Source of the DNA: Polynucleobacter nymphae
GTDB taxonomy: Bacteria > Pseudomonadota > Gammaproteobacteria > Burkholderiales > Burkholderiaceae
DNA: 64,000 nt
Direction of reading: 5' to 3'
Assembly (NCBI RefSeq): GCF_018882155.1
Contig: NZ_JACVPA010000001.1
Coordinates: 434,001 to 498,000, forward strand
The position numbers were made by a program, and so were the translations under genes. This document shows positions 17,652-41,206 of the stretch, one piece after another (the first letter of the stretch is position 1; every line of letters begins with the position of its first letter). Below the pieces are notes generated by a model. It saw only the letters and a list, made by a program, of their open reading frames with translations. It was not told the origin of the DNA and ran no database searches.

Positions 17652-18125
17652 TTATCCAAAGGGACCATTCAGTCGCACAGTATCCCAGTTCAAAACAATC
17701 GCAATAGTGACCCATATTAAATATGGCAGCATATATAAGCTGTATTTAGTAGACACCTTTCGTAGCGTCAGCAATATAGCAAGCACTGAAAGCCATAAAA
17801 ACACCGCTTCATATAAAGACCAGTCTGGTCTTTGAAAGCGAAAGTACAAAATACTCCATAGCAAGTTCAGAAAAGCATTAACCCAAAATAAAAAAGTGAG
17901 GCGACTCAGAAGCGCGGGGTTAGTGGTCAAGTGCTTTACAGCGACCCAAGCAATGCCAGACAAAACAAAAATAGTCGACCAGATCGGGCCAAATGCTGCA
18001 TCAGGCGGTTTCCAAAAAGGTTCTTTTAAGGCTTGATACCAAGGCCCCAAATCCGTTGCTAAACCCCCTAGAATCGCCACCGTTAAACCCCAGGCTAATG
18101 GCATAGCCATTTTTTTATTTAACAT
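17652..18125 (-). CDS. tspO: TspO/MBR family protein (tryptophan-rich sensory protein)
   Basis: The 157-residue protein has five predicted helices and the family motifs WYQALKEPFWKPPDAAFGPIW near residue 30 and WSILYF. TspO binds porphyrins. In Rhodobacter it tunes photosynthesis gene expression in response to oxygen, and it often lies at the edge of carotenoid or bacteriochlorophyll clusters, as here near dxs-hemA. It probably acts in the outer or inner membrane on tetrapyrrole flux. The start is ATG 18125. Confidence 0.88.
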   Translation of the reverse strand: MLNKKMAMPLAWGLTVAILGGLATDLGPWYQALKEPFWKPPDAAFGPIWSTIFVLSGIAWVAVKHLTTNPALLSRLTFLFWVNAFLNLLWSILYFRFQRPDWSLYEAVFLWLSVLAILLTLRKVSTKYSLYMLPYLIWVTIAIVLNWDTVRLNGPFG

Positions 18126-22294: not shown

Positions 22295-22312
22295 TGTATA
22301 GATTTATTTACA
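22295..22312. promoter_or_regulatory. PpsR/CrtJ-type operator upstream of pucBA
   Basis: TGTATAGATTTATTTACA fits TGT-N12-ACA and lies 93 bases before the pucB start. PpsR is known to repress puc operons in purple bacteria. The half-sites are less symmetric than at hemA or bchH but the outer triplets and spacing fit. Confidence 0.65.
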
Positions 22313-22405: not shown

Positions 22406-22549
22406 ATGACAAATAACACTCTTACAGGTCTGAGTGTTGAGGAGGCGGAAGAGTTACACCGTAACCTCATTCAAGGTACGCAATTTTTTGGGATGATTGC
22501 AGCACTCGCCCACTTACTTGCTTATATCTATTCACCTTGGTTGAAATAA
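22406..22549 (+). CDS. pucB: Peripheral light-harvesting (LH2-type) beta polypeptide
   Basis: The 47-residue protein contains LTGLSVEEAEELHRNLIQG and a single membrane helix ending SPWLK. His18 and His36 match the conserved bacteriochlorophyll-ligand positions of LH beta chains; His36 should bind the B850-type pigment. It resembles LH2 beta more than the LH1 beta of this window. At the usual B800 Arg20 and Asp17 positions this chain has Gln26 and Gln23, which may alter the B800 site. It is followed by pucA after 15 bases (AGGAG site) and then pucC. It is preceded by GAGAGGA and a PpsR-type site. Confidence 0.9.
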   Translation: MTNNTLTGLSVEEAEELHRNLIQGTQFFGMIAALAHLLAYIYSPWLK

Positions 22550-22564
22550 TTACAGGAGATTAAG

Positions 22565-22768
22565 ATGATCTACGGAAAAATGTGGACAGTAGTAAGACCA
22601 ACCGTTGGTATTCCATTGTTTTTGGGTGCGTGTGCAATCGGTTCTTTTTCAGTTCATTTAGCATTACTGAATAACACAACTTGGGTGAAGGCTTTTTTAG
22701 AAGGCGGTAAAGCTGCTAAAGCCGGCGCTGTTACATCGGCACCCGCGGCACCAACAGCACAAAAATAA
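22565..22768 (+). CDS. pucA: Peripheral light-harvesting (LH2/LH3-type) alpha polypeptide
   Basis: The 67-residue protein aligns without gaps to LH2 alpha chains: GKMWTVVRPTVGIP start, His31 as the BChl ligand, and TTWVKAFLEGG after the helix. Residues 44-45 are Phe-Leu. In LH2 (B800-850) these are Tyr-Trp or Tyr-Tyr and hydrogen-bond the pigment; in LH3 (B800-820) they are Phe-Leu. The predicted antenna is therefore blue-shifted. The C-terminus extends into an Ala/Pro-rich tail. It pairs with PucB and is probably assembled by the PucC encoded next. A terminator follows. Confidence 0.9.
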   Translation: MIYGKMWTVVRPTVGIPLFLGACAIGSFSVHLALLNNTTWVKAFLEGGKAAKAGAVTSAPAAPTAQK

Positions 22769-35799: not shown

Positions 35800-37248
35800 T
35801 TAACTTGGTAATTCATCTAAACCAAACTTCTTTGAAACATTCATTACGGCATGCTTATTCATCACCACTAAAGGCCCAATGGCGATCAATGTAGCGAACA
35901 GTAAATAAAATTCAATGTGATACACAAAGCTATAACCTGTAGCAGTGGAAATGAGGCCGTCTCCTAAAACACCACTAGTCGCTAGACTAGAAATGACATC
36001 CCGTATCACTCCTCCAGCTGCAATCGCAATACCAGATGCAGTAGCATGCACCGCACCCCAAGCACCAAGGACTAAACCATTCATCCCGCCTGACTCAAAA
36101 CTCATTGCGGCAGTTAAAGTGCTAACCGCAAATAATCCGCCGCCAAAACCAATCAAAAATGCACCGCAACGAAATAGCAAAGGTGAAAGTAATGGTTCGG
36201 AAAAAATTACGCAGCTAAATGCCAGAATTCCAAACAAGGCGCCAATGGAAGCAAGACGATAGGGATCAATCGTGCGATTTAAGTAACGTGCAGCTACACC
36301 AAATGCAAGTAGCGCACCTAATGAAGTAAGACTGGTTAACACTGTCGTAGCGCTAACTGATAAGCCCAGCACTTCAGCGCCATAAGGCTCCAAAATAATG
36401 TCTTGCATGCTAAATGCGGCAGTGCCTAAACCTAAGGCTAGTAAGAAGCGCATTACTTTGCCCTGCTGAGAAAAGGTGGCCCAAGTTTCTTTAAAGCTTG
36501 GTGTTGGAATGGAGTGCGCGGTTAAATGAGGTTGGCGAGGTTCTTGTTTCCAGGCGGCAATTAAATTTAGTATCAAAGTGGTTGCTGCGACACCCTGCAC
36601 TACCCGTATCAACAGAATGGGTGTGATATCAATCAGCAAATAGCCAAAGATGGCGCTACTGACTGCCATACCAACTAAGAGCATCATGTACATCATCGCA
36701 ACTACTCTCGGTCTAGCTTCTGGCTGGGCAAGGTCTGATGCTAGAGCGAGGCCAGCAGTTTGAGTCGTCTGCATGCCAGCGCCGACCAATAAGAAGGCAA
36801 GTCCAGTTGCTCCTTGCGCAAACCAAGCAGGCCAGGTGGTATCGCCAGACAACAGGATCAGTGCAAAGGGCATGATGGCAAAGCCACCGAATTGCAACCA
36901 AGAGCCAATCCAGATATAGGGTACCCTGCGCCATCCCAAAAATGACTTATGACTATCACTCTTAAAGCCAACTAGCGCTCTAAAAGGAGCAAACAACAGC
37001 GGCAAGGCAACCATAATAGAAACTAAAGCGGCGCTCACTTGCAACTCAATAATCATCACTCGGTTAAGCGTGCCAATCAGCATCACCATTGCCATGCCAA
37101 CAGAGACCTGAAATAGTGACAGCCTTAAGAGACGACTTAATGGCAAATCTTTGGTGGCGATATCGGCAAAAGGTAAGAACCTTGGACTCACTCTCTTCCA
37201 ATTTTCAAATAACTCTTTGCCACGCCAGGTCAGAGTAAACATTTTCAT
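35800..37248 (-). CDS. lhaA: LhaA, LH1 assembly protein (PucC family)
   Basis: The 482-residue protein has twelve helices and RLLRLSLFQVSVGMAMVMLI, RVMIIELQVSAALVSIMV and HKSFLGWRRVPYIWIG. The position between bchM and puhA is the signature location of lhaA, which is required for LH1 assembly. It shares long blocks with PucC at 22.9 kb, so the two are paralogues assigned by context. Confidence 0.92.
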   Translation of the reverse strand: MKMFTLTWRGKELFENWKRVSPRFLPFADIATKDLPLSRLLRLSLFQVSVGMAMVMLIGTLNRVMIIELQVSAALVSIMVALPLLFAPFRALVGFKSDSHKSFLGWRRVPYIWIGSWLQFGGFAIMPFALILLSGDTTWPAWFAQGATGLAFLLVGAGMQTTQTAGLALASDLAQPEARPRVVAMMYMMLLVGMAVSSAIFGYLLIDITPILLIRVVQGVAATTLILNLIAAWKQEPRQPHLTAHSIPTPSFKETWATFSQQGKVMRFLLALGLGTAAFSMQDIILEPYGAEVLGLSVSATTVLTSLTSLGALLAFGVAARYLNRTIDPYRLASIGALFGILAFSCVIFSEPLLSPLLFRCGAFLIGFGGGLFAVSTLTAAMSFESGGMNGLVLGAWGAVHATASGIAIAAGGVIRDVISSLATSGVLGDGLISTATGYSFVYHIEFYLLFATLIAIGPLVVMNKHAVMNVSKKFGLDELPS

Positions 37249-37250
37249 GG

Positions 37251-37976
37251 TTATCGCGCTTTACTCTGATCAGATGGCTTTTTGCTTAAACGCATAGCCT
37301 GTGAAAAATAAAATGCGCGTTGCACTTTTTGCGTACTCACTGGTGCCCAATCTACCAAACCATCATGCTTACTAAAGGTCCTTGTGAGGGAGTCAATCGA
37401 AATCGGCTGAATAAATGGTGATCGATCGCTTCTCGGAAATACGCTACCGATGGTCAATAAGGTACTCAGTGCTGCATTGTTGGGAGCAAAGGTAAAGGCA
37501 ATATTGGCTCGGGTACGAGCAGCAAGCTTTGCCATCGCATCAGCAATATCCAAATGGTGATAGTGAATCATCGAATCCATGCAAACTACATGATCAAACT
37601 CACCTAGAGAAGGATCTAACATATCGCCAGAGCGAAACTCAATGGAGCCAGAGCCAACATCTTGACCAATTCTCTCGCGAGCCAAATCAACTAAGGTCGG
37701 TGATAAATCAATCGCGACGACATGAGCGCCCCGCTTTGCTAAATCGGCTGCTAAGACTCCGGTTCCACAGCCAGCATCCAAAACGCGCTGGCCGGTCAAA
37801 TCACTCGGTAAATAACTGAGCAACACATGGCGCATCTCTTCGCGCCCAGCACGAACCTTGGCACGAATACCGCTTACCTTAGCAGTGGACGTGAGCTTTG
37901 CCCAAGCGTCTACCGCAGTGCGATCGAAATACTCTTGGAGCTGACTGCGCTTTTGGGTGTAAGAATTTTCAAGCAT
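37251..37976 (-). CDS. bchM: Mg-protoporphyrin IX O-methyltransferase
   Basis: The 241-residue protein has the SAM motif RVLDAGCGTGVLAADLAKRG and LGEFDHVVCMDSMIHYHH, typical of BchM/ChlM. It methylates the C13 propionate before ring closure by AcsF. The frame could start at a TTG at 37994 directly after bchF, but the ATG at 37976 (MLENSYTQKR) fits the family. The immediate bchF-bchM junction is unusual: bchN, bchB, bchH and bchL normally lie between them. Confidence 0.93.
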   Translation of the reverse strand: MLENSYTQKRSQLQEYFDRTAVDAWAKLTSTAKVSGIRAKVRAGREEMRHVLLSYLPSDLTGQRVLDAGCGTGVLAADLAKRGAHVVAIDLSPTLVDLARERIGQDVGSGSIEFRSGDMLDPSLGEFDHVVCMDSMIHYHHLDIADAMAKLAARTRANIAFTFAPNNAALSTLLTIGSVFPRSDRSPFIQPISIDSLTRTFSKHDGLVDWAPVSTQKVQRAFYFSQAMRLSKKPSDQSKAR

Positions 37977-37994
37977 CAAATCATCGCCTATCAA

Positions 37995-38663
37995 TTATTT
38001 CAACCATGGGGAATAGATGTAGGCCAATAGATGGGCTATTGCCGCTACGAAGCCAAAAAATTGCGTCCCTTGTACTAGGCTGCGATGCAACTCTTCTGCT
38101 TCTGCCGTAGTCAAACCTGTCAAGGTTGTAGCTGAAGCTCGGGCCATTACTGCCTGAACGCTTGCCATTGCAGGATTGAGAGTGGCAGCTGCCAACTTTT
38201 TTTTAGCCTCATCCAAACGGGCCATGCGCAACTTCCAAATAAATTGGCTGGCATTAATCACATAGGTCGCATAAGCAGCTAAAGCGAGCAACATGAGTTG
38301 GGTTTGATCTAAATACCCTGTTCCTAGGGCTACCAGATATAAGGTATGTAAAAGTAATACCAACATACTGAATACGTCTTCCCAGAAAAATGCTGGGGCA
38401 AATAAATAACAATTGAAAACCACTTTTTCCCAAATACAACCGGTAATCATGATGGTATAGAGCGTGAGTGTTTTAACTACTACTGAAATATTTGCTGCTT
38501 GCTCACCTTCTCCAGTGAATAAAAAACGCAGAACGAGATAAAGGCTAACTAGGAAAACAACAAACTGAATGGGCGCTAAAATTCCTTGAACTAGAGTCCA
38601 TTTAGTTGCATCCCTTCTTACCCTCTCTTCTGGGGTATAAAGTGGTCTATAAGTATTTTCCAT
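37995..38663 (-). CDS. bchF: 3-vinyl bacteriochlorophyllide hydratase BchF fused to an LH2 beta-like domain
   Basis: The 222-residue frame is uninterrupted. Residues 1 to about 150 are BchF: YTPEERVRRDATKWTLVQGI, EKVVFNCYLFAPAFFWEDVF, and a helix pattern of about four or five segments. BchF hydrates the C3 vinyl group. Family members usually stop near residue 155-175. Here a linker (about 150-178) leads to 44 residues that match PucB of this window at 35 positions, including both histidines (193, 211) and the same SPWLK end. No stop or start codon divides them. Of the 35 identical residues, 19 use a different codon, so the domain is old and under protein-level constraint. The fused part could be an antenna chain or a pigment-docking module. 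Confidence 0.9.
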   Translation of the reverse strand: MENTYRPLYTPEERVRRDATKWTLVQGILAPIQFVVFLVSLYLVLRFLFTGEGEQAANISVVVKTLTLYTIMITGCIWEKVVFNCYLFAPAFFWEDVFSMLVLLLHTLYLVALGTGYLDQTQLMLLALAAYATYVINASQFIWKLRMARLDEAKKKLAAATLNPAMASVQAVMARASATTLTGLTTAEAEELHRSLVQGTQFFGFVAAIAHLLAYIYSPWLK

Positions 38664-38835: not shown

Positions 38836-38853
38836 TGTTATAAATTTGTTACA
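38836..38853. promoter_or_regulatory. PpsR-type operator between bchF and ppaA
   Basis: TGTTATAAATTTGTTACA fits TGT-N12-ACA. It lies in the 289-base divergent gap between bchF and ppaA/ppsR, so it could repress bchF-bchM and auto-regulate ppaA-ppsR. The spacing to both starts is reasonable for an operator. Confidence 0.6.
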
Positions 38854-38952
38854 AATTAGCCCCCTTAGAGGGCAAAGAACTCATTAATTTTTGCGGTGCA
38901 GCATTTAGCATCCATCATTTGTATTAATCACTGCATCCTAAGGAGATGGGTT

Positions 38953-39792
38953 TTGTCGGACTCGCTGAAAAAAACATACCAGTCTAGTTTAGGCGAATTA
39001 GATAGCGCGGAAATGATGCTGTGGCTCAATAAAACCATAGAGTCAGAAATCATTCCCCGCTTACTGATGGGGCAAAAGCTGGAATCAGCCAATCGGCTTG
39101 CTGATGCTCAAAGTAGCAACATCGAGGTGAAGCAGGCGGAAATTATCGATTTTTGCCAGACTTTGCTAGATGGCCCCATAGCGGACTGCTTCACTTTTAT
39201 CGATCAAATGCAAAAATCGGGCCACAGTCTGGTATCGCTCTATATGAATTTGATTCCAGCATCGACTAGGCGCTTGCAACAGCTCTGGGAAACCGATGAA
39301 AATAGCTTTACAGAGGTGACTTTGGCGCTAGGCAGAGCCCAGAATCTGATTCATCAGCTCAGCCCTGCCTTTATGAGCCAAGGCAAACTCTCTGAGTACC
39401 AAGGAAATGCTCTCCTGATCAATGCTCCAGGATCACAACACACCCTGGGCATCCTGATCATGGGTGAATTTTTCAAATTGAACGGCTGGAATACGACGGT
39501 CGAAATTGAAACGACCAGTGCCGGCCTCCAGGATCGAATTCGTACACAAGCTTATGATTTATTAGCAATTTCTATCTCCTGTGAGGATCAATGGAGTACT
39601 ATGGAAACATTGCTCAATGAAGTAAAAAAGGTCTCAAAAAACAAGGGGATACTGACAATGGCAGGTGGCCCGTTATTCGATTTCAAACCGGAACTCATTC
39701 AAGAGTGTTCCGCAGATGTTTGCGAGCTCACAGCTGAAGCGGCCATTAAAAAAGTTTCAGACTTGATAGCACAAAAATCTGCCTTAAATTAA
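38953..39792 (+). CDS. ppaA: PpaA/AerR-type cobalamin-binding photosynthesis regulator
   Basis: The 279-residue protein has a helical N-terminal region and a B12-binding fold: GSQHTLGILIMGEFFKLNGW (xHxxG motif), LLAISISCEDQWSTM and MAGGPLFDF. This matches PpaA/AerR, the antirepressor that binds cobalamin and modulates CrtJ/PpsR. The start is TTG at 38953 with AGGAG seven bases upstream; the in-frame ATG at 38896 has no such site. ppsR follows after one base, the classic ppaA-ppsR pair. Confidence 0.88.
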   Translation: MSDSLKKTYQSSLGELDSAEMMLWLNKTIESEIIPRLLMGQKLESANRLADAQSSNIEVKQAEIIDFCQTLLDGPIADCFTFIDQMQKSGHSLVSLYMNLIPASTRRLQQLWETDENSFTEVTLALGRAQNLIHQLSPAFMSQGKLSEYQGNALLINAPGSQHTLGILIMGEFFKLNGWNTTVEIETTSAGLQDRIRTQAYDLLAISISCEDQWSTMETLLNEVKKVSKNKGILTMAGGPLFDFKPELIQECSADVCELTAEAAIKKVSDLIAQKSALN

Positions 39793-39793
39793 T

Positions 39794-41206
39794 ATGCCCA
39801 TCTCACATCATCCAGACAAACTCTTCGCAGAATTAAGCGGAAAAGAGCTCAGTCAGATAGCGCGAGCATCGGCAGATATCTCCTTTGTTTTGGATGACCT
39901 AGGATCGATACAAAGCATCTACTCAGATAATAAAAATTTATCCAAACAAATTTCAGAAGATCTGATTGGGAAAAAATGGTCAGAAGTAGTAGAACCTGAT
40001 AGTAAAAAGAAGGTTCAAAGCTTGCTAGACGATGCCAGCCCAGACACCATCACTAAGTTTAGACAAATTAATATGATTGGCAATGAGAGAAACGTAGCGT
40101 TGCCAATGATGTGCGCTTCCATCAAAACATCGTCGAATCAAAAGATTATCGTTATTGGCAGAGACATCACCGAGGTCTCTCGCTTGCAGCAAAATTTAGT
40201 GTCGGCTCAAAAAGAGATTAGTCAAAATTATCTACAAATAAGCCAGATTGAAGAACGGTTTCGATCTATCTTTGAAATTGGTACAGAGTCTATCGTCATC
40301 GTTAAAGCAGATGATGCATACCCGATCATCGAGATGAACAGAAATGCCATTAAGCAGCTGCTTCTTGCTAAAAATAATTGCATTGGAAATTCGCTTCTAT
40401 CGCTCTTCCCTGCTGGTGAGCTAAGTAAGGCTGCGAATTTTCTGGAAGGTGTTCAAGAGACAGATGAGCCTAGTATCCTAAAAACAGTATTGAGCAATGG
40501 CGAAGCAACTCAAATTAGTGCAACTTCTTTTATAAACAGTGGAATTCCCTACTTACTGCTGAATCTGAAGCCGCTGGATTTAGCTAAAGCATCTAGCCTA
40601 TTAGATGCTGACTCGTTAACCGTTAAGGCGATTGAAAATAACGCCTATGGTTTTGTTGTTTGCACCCCAGAGGGTCTGATTCTGAAGACAAATAAAGCCT
40701 TCAATAAACTCAGCGCCACCAGGGGTGAGCAAGAACTCATTGGTACCAATATCCGAAATTACTTAGGGCCAGAGAGAACGGATTTTGATCAAATGATGCA
40801 ATCCTTACAAGGCAAGGCTAGCTCACAATCTTGCGTCTCTTCGATCACTAACGCCACGAGTAGCATTAAGTTAGTGGATATTTCCGCGGTATCCGTAGCG
40901 CAACCACGCGCCTGCATTGGCATGATCTTTCGCCAAGTAGATTCGAGGCAAAATAAAGGTGCGCGCATCGACAAAAAACTCGTGCGTAGCTCCCAAGAAC
41001 TATCAATGCTAGTTGGAAAAGTCCCTTTAAAAGATATTCTCGCTGAAACAACCGACTTAATTGAGCAGCTTTGTATTAAAGCCGCATTAGATCTGACTCA
41101 AGATAATCGTGTTTCTGCCTCGGAAATCTTGGGACTATCAAGACAAAGTCTGTACATCAAACTCAGAAAGTACGGTCTCGTAGACCTCAATAAGGATATT
41201 GATTAG
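39794..41206 (+). CDS. ppsR: Transcriptional regulator PpsR/CrtJ
   Basis: The 470-residue protein has tandem PAS domains (one near residues 25-120, one near 155-270 and one near 280-375) and a C-terminal Fis-type HTH, ASEILGLSRQSLYIKLRKYG. This is the aerobic repressor of photosynthesis genes. Cys290 (FVVCTPEG) and Cys427 (EQLCIKAAL) sit near where the redox-active cysteines of CrtJ/PpsR occur. It sits with ppaA, and its likely targets carry TGT-N12-ACA sites in this window. Confidence 0.92.
   Translation: MPISHHPDKLFAELSGKELSQIARASADISFVLDDLGSIQSIYSDNKNLSKQISEDLIGKKWSEVVEPDSKKKVQSLLDDASPDTITKFRQINMIGNERNVALPMMCASIKTSSNQKIIVIGRDITEVSRLQQNLVSAQKEISQNYLQISQIEERFRSIFEIGTESIVIVKADDAYPIIEMNRNAIKQLLLAKNNCIGNSLLSLFPAGELSKAANFLEGVQETDEPSILKTVLSNGEATQISATSFINSGIPYLLLNLKPLDLAKASSLLDADSLTVKAIENNAYGFVVCTPEGLILKTNKAFNKLSATRGEQELIGTNIRNYLGPERTDFDQMMQSLQGKASSQSCVSSITNATSSIKLVDISAVSVAQPRACIGMIFRQVDSRQNKGARIDKKLVRSSQELSMLVGKVPLKDILAETTDLIEQLCIKAALDLTQDNRVSASEILGLSRQSLYIKLRKYGLVDLNKDID

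Follow-up and report, generated by a model that had tools for sequence, protein, structure and literature searches.

BchF fused in frame to an LH2-type beta domain in one clade of Polynucleobacter

The fused gene and its product

The stretch of DNA analysed here, 64,000 nucleotides of a Polynucleobacter nymphae contig (the window), carries a gene in which bchF is joined in frame to a domain resembling the LH2 beta polypeptide (Table 1). The N-terminal part is a predicted 3-vinyl (bacterio)chlorophyllide hydratase BchF, matching the Pfam BCHF profile PF07284 over its full length (profile positions 1–139 of 139; E 1.4e-60; 203.8 bits against a cut-off of 25) as well as NCBIfam TIGR02020 (183.4 bits, cut-off 101.35). 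The C-terminal tail belongs to the Pfam LHC family PF00556 (E 4.4e-8; 33.7 bits, cut-off 23), and its score with the NCBIfam beta equivalog NF040862 (59.4 bits) places it just below the cut-off of 61 and outside that family; the window's PucB scores 65.0 bits. The best match of the tail among solved structures is the LH2 beta chain 7zcu_B (E 1.1e-13), and all PDB matches listed lie in the tail, with none in the BchF part. Five LHC matches were identified in the window's genome, corresponding to pufB, pufA, pucB, pucA and the fused tail. Only BCHF and LHC or LH beta families were matched by the fused protein in Pfam and NCBIfam, with no match to ferrochelatase or CAB families. A Foldseek search against the PDB gave no match at E ≤ 0.001, and PHROGs gave none.

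Table 1. Coordinates in the window of the fused gene, its parts and related genes.
Feature	Position	Strand	Remarks
bchF-LH beta fused gene	37995..38663	-	ATG start; 222 aa plus stop
BchF domain, residues 1-150	38214..38663	-	Pfam BCHF 9-147, NCBIfam TIGR02020 8-149; omega 0.036
Linker, residues 151-180	38124..38213	-	4/32 alignment columns invariant (15 fusions); omega 0.50
LH2-type beta domain, residues 181-222	37998..38123	-	Pfam LHC 187-221; PDB LH2 beta chains; 25/42 columns invariant; omega 0.11
His193, beta-domain position -18	38085..38087	-	Invariant in 15/15 fusions
His211, beta-domain position 0	38031..38033	-	Invariant in 15/15 fusions
bchM, directly downstream of fused gene	37251..37994	-	TIGR02021 E 3.5e-75; ATG at 37976 likelier start
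PucC-family antenna assembly gene	35800..37248	-	Pfam PUCC E 1e-131
pucB, free LH2 beta gene	22406..22549	+	Likely source family of tail
pucA, LH2 alpha gene	22565..22768	+	Possible partner

LH beta chains are recognised by two histidines 18 residues apart, Ala-4 and Trp+9. These hallmarks are present in all 15 fusions that we identified, in which His-18, His0, Ala-4, Pro+8 and Trp+9 are unchanged and positions 0 to +11 are constant save for one Ser to Phe change. On the basis of LH2 structures, His211 is presumably the ligand of a B850 BChl. The original prediction had reported that the tail matches the window's PucB at 35 of 44 residues, 19 of these 35 being encoded by different codons, and that it retains both histidines; our recount returned exactly these numbers, and between 32 and 39 of the 44 residues match the clade's PucB across the 15 tails. 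Because the tail and PucB agree at only 94 of 132 nucleotides and the tail is shared across the clade, recent duplication was rejected, as the prediction had argued. These comparisons support the derivation of the tail from an LH2-type PucB. The sequence TGGTTGAAATAATT, which spans the stop codon, is common to pucB and the fused gene, a weak hint that the pucB copy may have carried some of its 3′ flank bases along.

The tail also departs from a free LH2 beta polypeptide. Unlike PucB, it is the C-terminal domain of an enzyme, has no start codon of its own and carries fixed changes at position -6 (M to F in 13/15 fusions) and -2 (L to I in 14/15), which suggest that it has a role of its own. LH beta polypeptides are free short chains, and no internal start codon is conserved from which such a chain could begin. 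No ATG, GTG or TTG occurs in alignment codons 148–188 of two genomes (G039 and G104), and in the other fused genomes some start codons do occur within the linker or close to it, at varying places. A separately initiated beta chain is therefore not a shared feature, and free beta arising from an internal start was rejected as a general explanation. BchF-beta is probably translated as one stable chain.

The AlphaFold2 model of this chain, for which the input comprised 47 rows with only six fusions and two free beta chains, had a mean pLDDT of 87.6 and is composed of four long BchF helices, a linker helix and a beta helix (residues 186–221). Confidence in the beta helix was moderate (block means mostly 67–79, and 45 at the end), and the packing of the modelled tail is not to be trusted. 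Residues 144–186 include seven K+R versus two D+E, and the loops corresponding to residues 50–58 and 114–121 include no K+R. Given the four BchF helices and the beta helix of the model together with the seven K+R in residues 144–186, the C-terminus of BchF and the N-terminus of the beta domain are predicted to be cytoplasmic, as LH beta chains start on the cytoplasmic side.

Distribution, gene order and loss of the tail

BchF was identified in 77 of the 186 Polynucleobacter genomes searched, at 78 places (the window and 77 further loci), all of which were read. It had been proposed that BchF homologues in Burkholderiales be searched for C-terminal LH domains, and within the genus this search was positive: 15 of the 78 places encode the fusion, as proteins of 222–224 aa. 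Six relatives carry truncated genes with BchF cores 94–97% identical to that of the window. The remaining 57 loci have no beta domain, and 56 of them end at 158–176 aa in the window's numbering; the other one (L112), near a contig end, encodes only about 135 aa. Among 80 BchF loci from named genomes, five are fused and six truncated, all in this same clade, and the remaining 69 lack the fusion; some of the 80 represent the same genomes as the other sets. The named relatives assign the clade to Polynucleobacter: the isolate Polynucleobacter sp. AP-Melu-500A-A1 (L151) and a MAG labelled P. meluiroseus (L143) are fused, and P. campilacus (L152) has the truncated form.

The fusion was absent from 79 BchF loci outside the genus, comprising 47 of the 48 order matches and 32 new loci (class and phylum samples, two long frames). 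One order match (G549), a fragment of 30 residues only, was left out, and the contig ends inside another locus (L134). Because the order, class and phylum searches were samples, the fusion may also occur elsewhere. Ten plasmid records contained BchF matches, none covering >73% of the query and none reaching the tail. Five of the 15 fused genomes (G039, G073, G076, G079 and G083) are single-contig assemblies, which makes an assembly error unlikely.

The six truncated genes end in ...AMASPHG or ...AMASPMVE(I/V)I because a deletion, counted from the alignment at about 148 or 149 nt, shifted the reading frame, and the two deletion forms differ by one C within a C run. The DNA of these genes keeps the end of the beta domain out of frame, as CCATGGTTGAA(A/G)TAAT in five and as CAATGG... 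in one. Such a scar of the beta C-terminus indicates that the fused state came first, and on this evidence the fusion is ancestral to the six truncated relatives. Since the tail was lost there by deletion, it is dispensable in them. The scar itself is nearly unchanged in L045, L049, L051, L053, L054 and L060 although it no longer codes for beta; the deletion may be recent, or the sequence may serve a function at the DNA level close to where bchM starts.

A tree of the bchF core that included six outgroup genes placed the truncated genes among the window's close relatives and not basally. Fused and truncated genomes were interspersed both in a bchF+bchM tree, in which L054, L056, L059 and L065 had partial or no bchM, and in an independent puc/puf tree of 17 of the 21 genomes (G027, G024, G148 and G179 were absent because of too little sequence). 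Mixed pairs included fused G091 with truncated G165 (99) and fused G055 with truncated G010 (95). Because the junctions are near-identical and this placement is mixed, the pattern suggests that the deletion either arose once and was spread by recombination or occurred repeatedly.

The clade also differs in gene order. In 56 of the 57 other genus loci bchF adjoins bchN, with an ATGA overlap in the examples inspected, and the remaining locus is cut by a contig end, whereas in the window, the 14 other fused genomes and the six truncated genomes bchF is followed by bchM. The fusion therefore coincides with a breakpoint of rearrangement. In the window, the fused gene is followed by bchM, a PucC-family gene that we take by its position to be lhaA, and puhA. 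The window's genome retains bchN outside the window, about 32 kb away (C9:504510-505736), and replacement of the dark protochlorophyllide reductase by the light-dependent enzyme was thus rejected as the cause of its absence from this locus. The original prediction of a real, old, in-frame fusion stands, with the qualification that the tail was lost in six relatives and that bchF left the bchN operon in this clade.

Several other features of the region were recorded. A gene for a B12-binding-domain protein followed by ppsR (38896-41206) is divergent from the fused gene, and a TspO/MBR family gene (17652-18125) is located close to a border of the photosynthesis cluster. Palindromes of the form TGTN12ACA, which we assume to be the PpsR-type motif, occur upstream of bchF (38836-38853) and of pucB (22295-22312) and are possible PpsR sites. 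This motif is not enriched in the window (11 observed, 14.1 expected), and a promoter scan returned nothing above chance.

Selection on the tail

Omega was estimated with a purpose-written codon likelihood script, with topology and relative branch lengths fixed, one omega per region and recombination ignored. Over the 15 fused genomes the profile ranges were 0.09–0.14 for the tail and 0.4–0.6 for the linker, BchF being the most constrained region (0.036; 123/150 columns invariant). Neutrality of the tail (omega 1.0) was rejected with a 2dL of 158, and the difference between 0.11 in the tail and 0.50 in the linker argues that selection acts on the beta helix itself rather than just keeping the frame open. 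The claim that the protein has been kept is thereby borne out: the fused genomes have no frameshift, no lost histidine and an omega well below 1. Chance or a frame artefact was rejected by the profile scores, the occurrence in 15 genomes and the codon selection. The BchF-LH beta fusion is real, clade-specific and under selection.

This constraint is weaker than that on pucB, for which omega was about 0, and weaker still in the window's subclade of four genomes, where omega was 0.23 for the tail (2dL 15.7) and 0.91 for the linker; the other subclade, of 11 genomes, gave 0.084 for the tail. For pufB, omega was 0.065 (13/15 genomes). Invariance among the 15 fusions was not enriched at tail positions common to PucB and PufB (Fisher p 0.34). 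On the scale of synonymous rates, the tail and bchF are about alike (9.0 and 8.5) and pucB is lower (2.4). The PucB protein is almost invariant in the 21 clade genomes, and the inferred synonymous rate of pucB in the 15 fused genomes, about a quarter of that of bchF, is compatible with codon selection under high expression.

Possible roles of the joined beta domain

That selection has kept the tail joined to the enzyme suggests a physical link between pigment making and antenna building. We tentatively favour, at a little below an even chance, the reading that the beta domain docks BchF at antenna-assembly sites through an LH2 alpha partner or an assembly factor and so couples synthesis to assembly. 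On this reading, the ancestor of one Polynucleobacter clade would have acquired an in-frame junction between the 3′ end of bchF and a duplicated pucB, at the position where bchM replaced bchN as the neighbour of bchF. The product would be a single chain in which a four-helix BchF with a cytoplasmic C-terminus is connected by a flexible linker to another membrane helix, the fifth, which matches an LH2 beta polypeptide in sequence and predicted orientation. This helix would act as a docking module, pairing with LH2 alpha (PucA) or being recognised by a PucC/LhaA-type factor, and docking would hold BchF, and with it the bacteriochlorophyll pathway, where the antenna is built. We infer the docking partner, the localisation and the benefit alike.

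Co-located machinery has a precedent in Rhodobacter, where FLAG-LhaA is described as capturing RC subunits, LH2-beta and several BChl enzymes (PMC4949548), and where pigment synthesis has been proposed to be coupled to LH polypeptide insertion. Against docking, the LhaA paper does not name BchF as a partner, and the enzyme does not occur in its main text. The six relatives without the tail, the interspersion of fused and truncated genomes in two trees, the tail omega of 0.23 in the window's subclade, the weaker constraint on the tail than on pucB, the lack of concentration of invariance at PucB/PufB-shared positions and the moderate confidence of the modelled tail also count against it. That six relatives have lost the tail is in keeping with a tuning function, as opposed to an essential one.

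These deletions, together with the weaker constraint in the window's subclade and the missing enrichment at PucB/PufB positions, also favour a dispensable by-product: stop loss or a rearrangement would have joined a pucB copy to bchF, and the helix would be kept mainly since a misfolded membrane helix harms the enzyme, and be lost without cost. We consider this unlikely, given the tail omega over all 15 genomes and in the 11-genome subclade, the invariance of all five hallmark residues and the near constancy of positions 0 to +11; the two histidines and the tryptophan need not survive under generic hydrophobic constraint. It is unlikely that BchF-beta is a pigment-loaded coupling device, whose beta helix would pair with PucA, bind BChl, report assembly to an early pathway step and hold the pathway at the assembly site. 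If true, an enzyme and an antenna polypeptide would have become covalently linked in a purple-type phototroph, independently of ferrochelatase-CAB. A quite unlikely alternative, modelled on a proposal for the CAB domain of cyanobacterial ferrochelatase, is a pigment-sensing regulator in which the beta domain, alone or with PucA, would bind finished BChl and its occupancy would alter the activity or stability of BchF, so that antenna demand feeds back. To our knowledge BchF is not an established flux-control step, which speaks against such a regulator; in its favour, the tail retains the whole of the presumed pocket, including both histidines, and removal of the CAB domain of the Synechocystis ferrochelatase is reported to alter kcat (PMC3563542).

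A genuine antenna chain, with BchF-beta paired with PucA as a minor subunit of the LH2 ring and BchF as its cargo, appears improbable. The beta features of the tail are complete, PucA is encoded in the same genome and the predicted topology is compatible, but a four-helix cargo should hinder ring closure, and the tail has about the synonymous rate of bchF and not the low rate of pucB, which fits ordinary and not antenna-level expression. Among tether, antenna chain and direct pigment hand-over by BchF-beta, the last is the weakest, because BchF acts on (bacterio)chlorophyllide several steps ahead of finished BChl a. The reaction is hydration of the C3-vinyl group of a (bacterio)chlorophyllide, with substrates as given in PMC10101016.

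The nearest analogue of BchF-beta in design appears to be the type II ferrochelatase-CAB of cyanobacteria and plastids, likewise described as an enzyme of the tetrapyrrole pathway that continues through a linker into one C-terminal helix of an antenna family; this helix can be removed without loss of catalysis and yet alters activity (PMC3563542). The enzymes are unrelated, and the helix belongs to the chlorophyll a/b-binding family in one and to LH alpha/beta in the other; without homology to ferrochelatase or the CAB family, the fused protein would resemble ferrochelatase-CAB in working at most. Ferrochelatase-CAB also occurs across oxygenic phototrophs, whereas BchF-beta was found in one genus. 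The LhaA/PucC machinery with the BChl synthase BchG in Rhodobacter similarly sets BChl enzymes beside nascent LH polypeptides, but consists of separate proteins with no fusion, and BchF is absent from the main text describing it (PMC4949548). In the PufQ-ferrochelatase complex of Rhodobacter, as described in PMC5725709, a small pigment-binding membrane protein sits on a tetrapyrrole enzyme of a purple bacterium; this association is non-covalent, at the haem/BChl branch point, and PufQ differs from LH beta. No report of a BchF-LH beta fusion was found in the open-access literature searched.

The fusion bears on how cells match the making of pigment to the supply of antenna protein, and the fused species and their cleanly deleted sister species form a natural experiment on BChl intermediates and antenna level. 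Should the tail dock at or sense the antenna, the fusion would be a case of convergence with the ferrochelatase-CAB found in oxygenic phototrophs, and it would point to a modular means of directing tetrapyrrole enzymes to antenna assembly.
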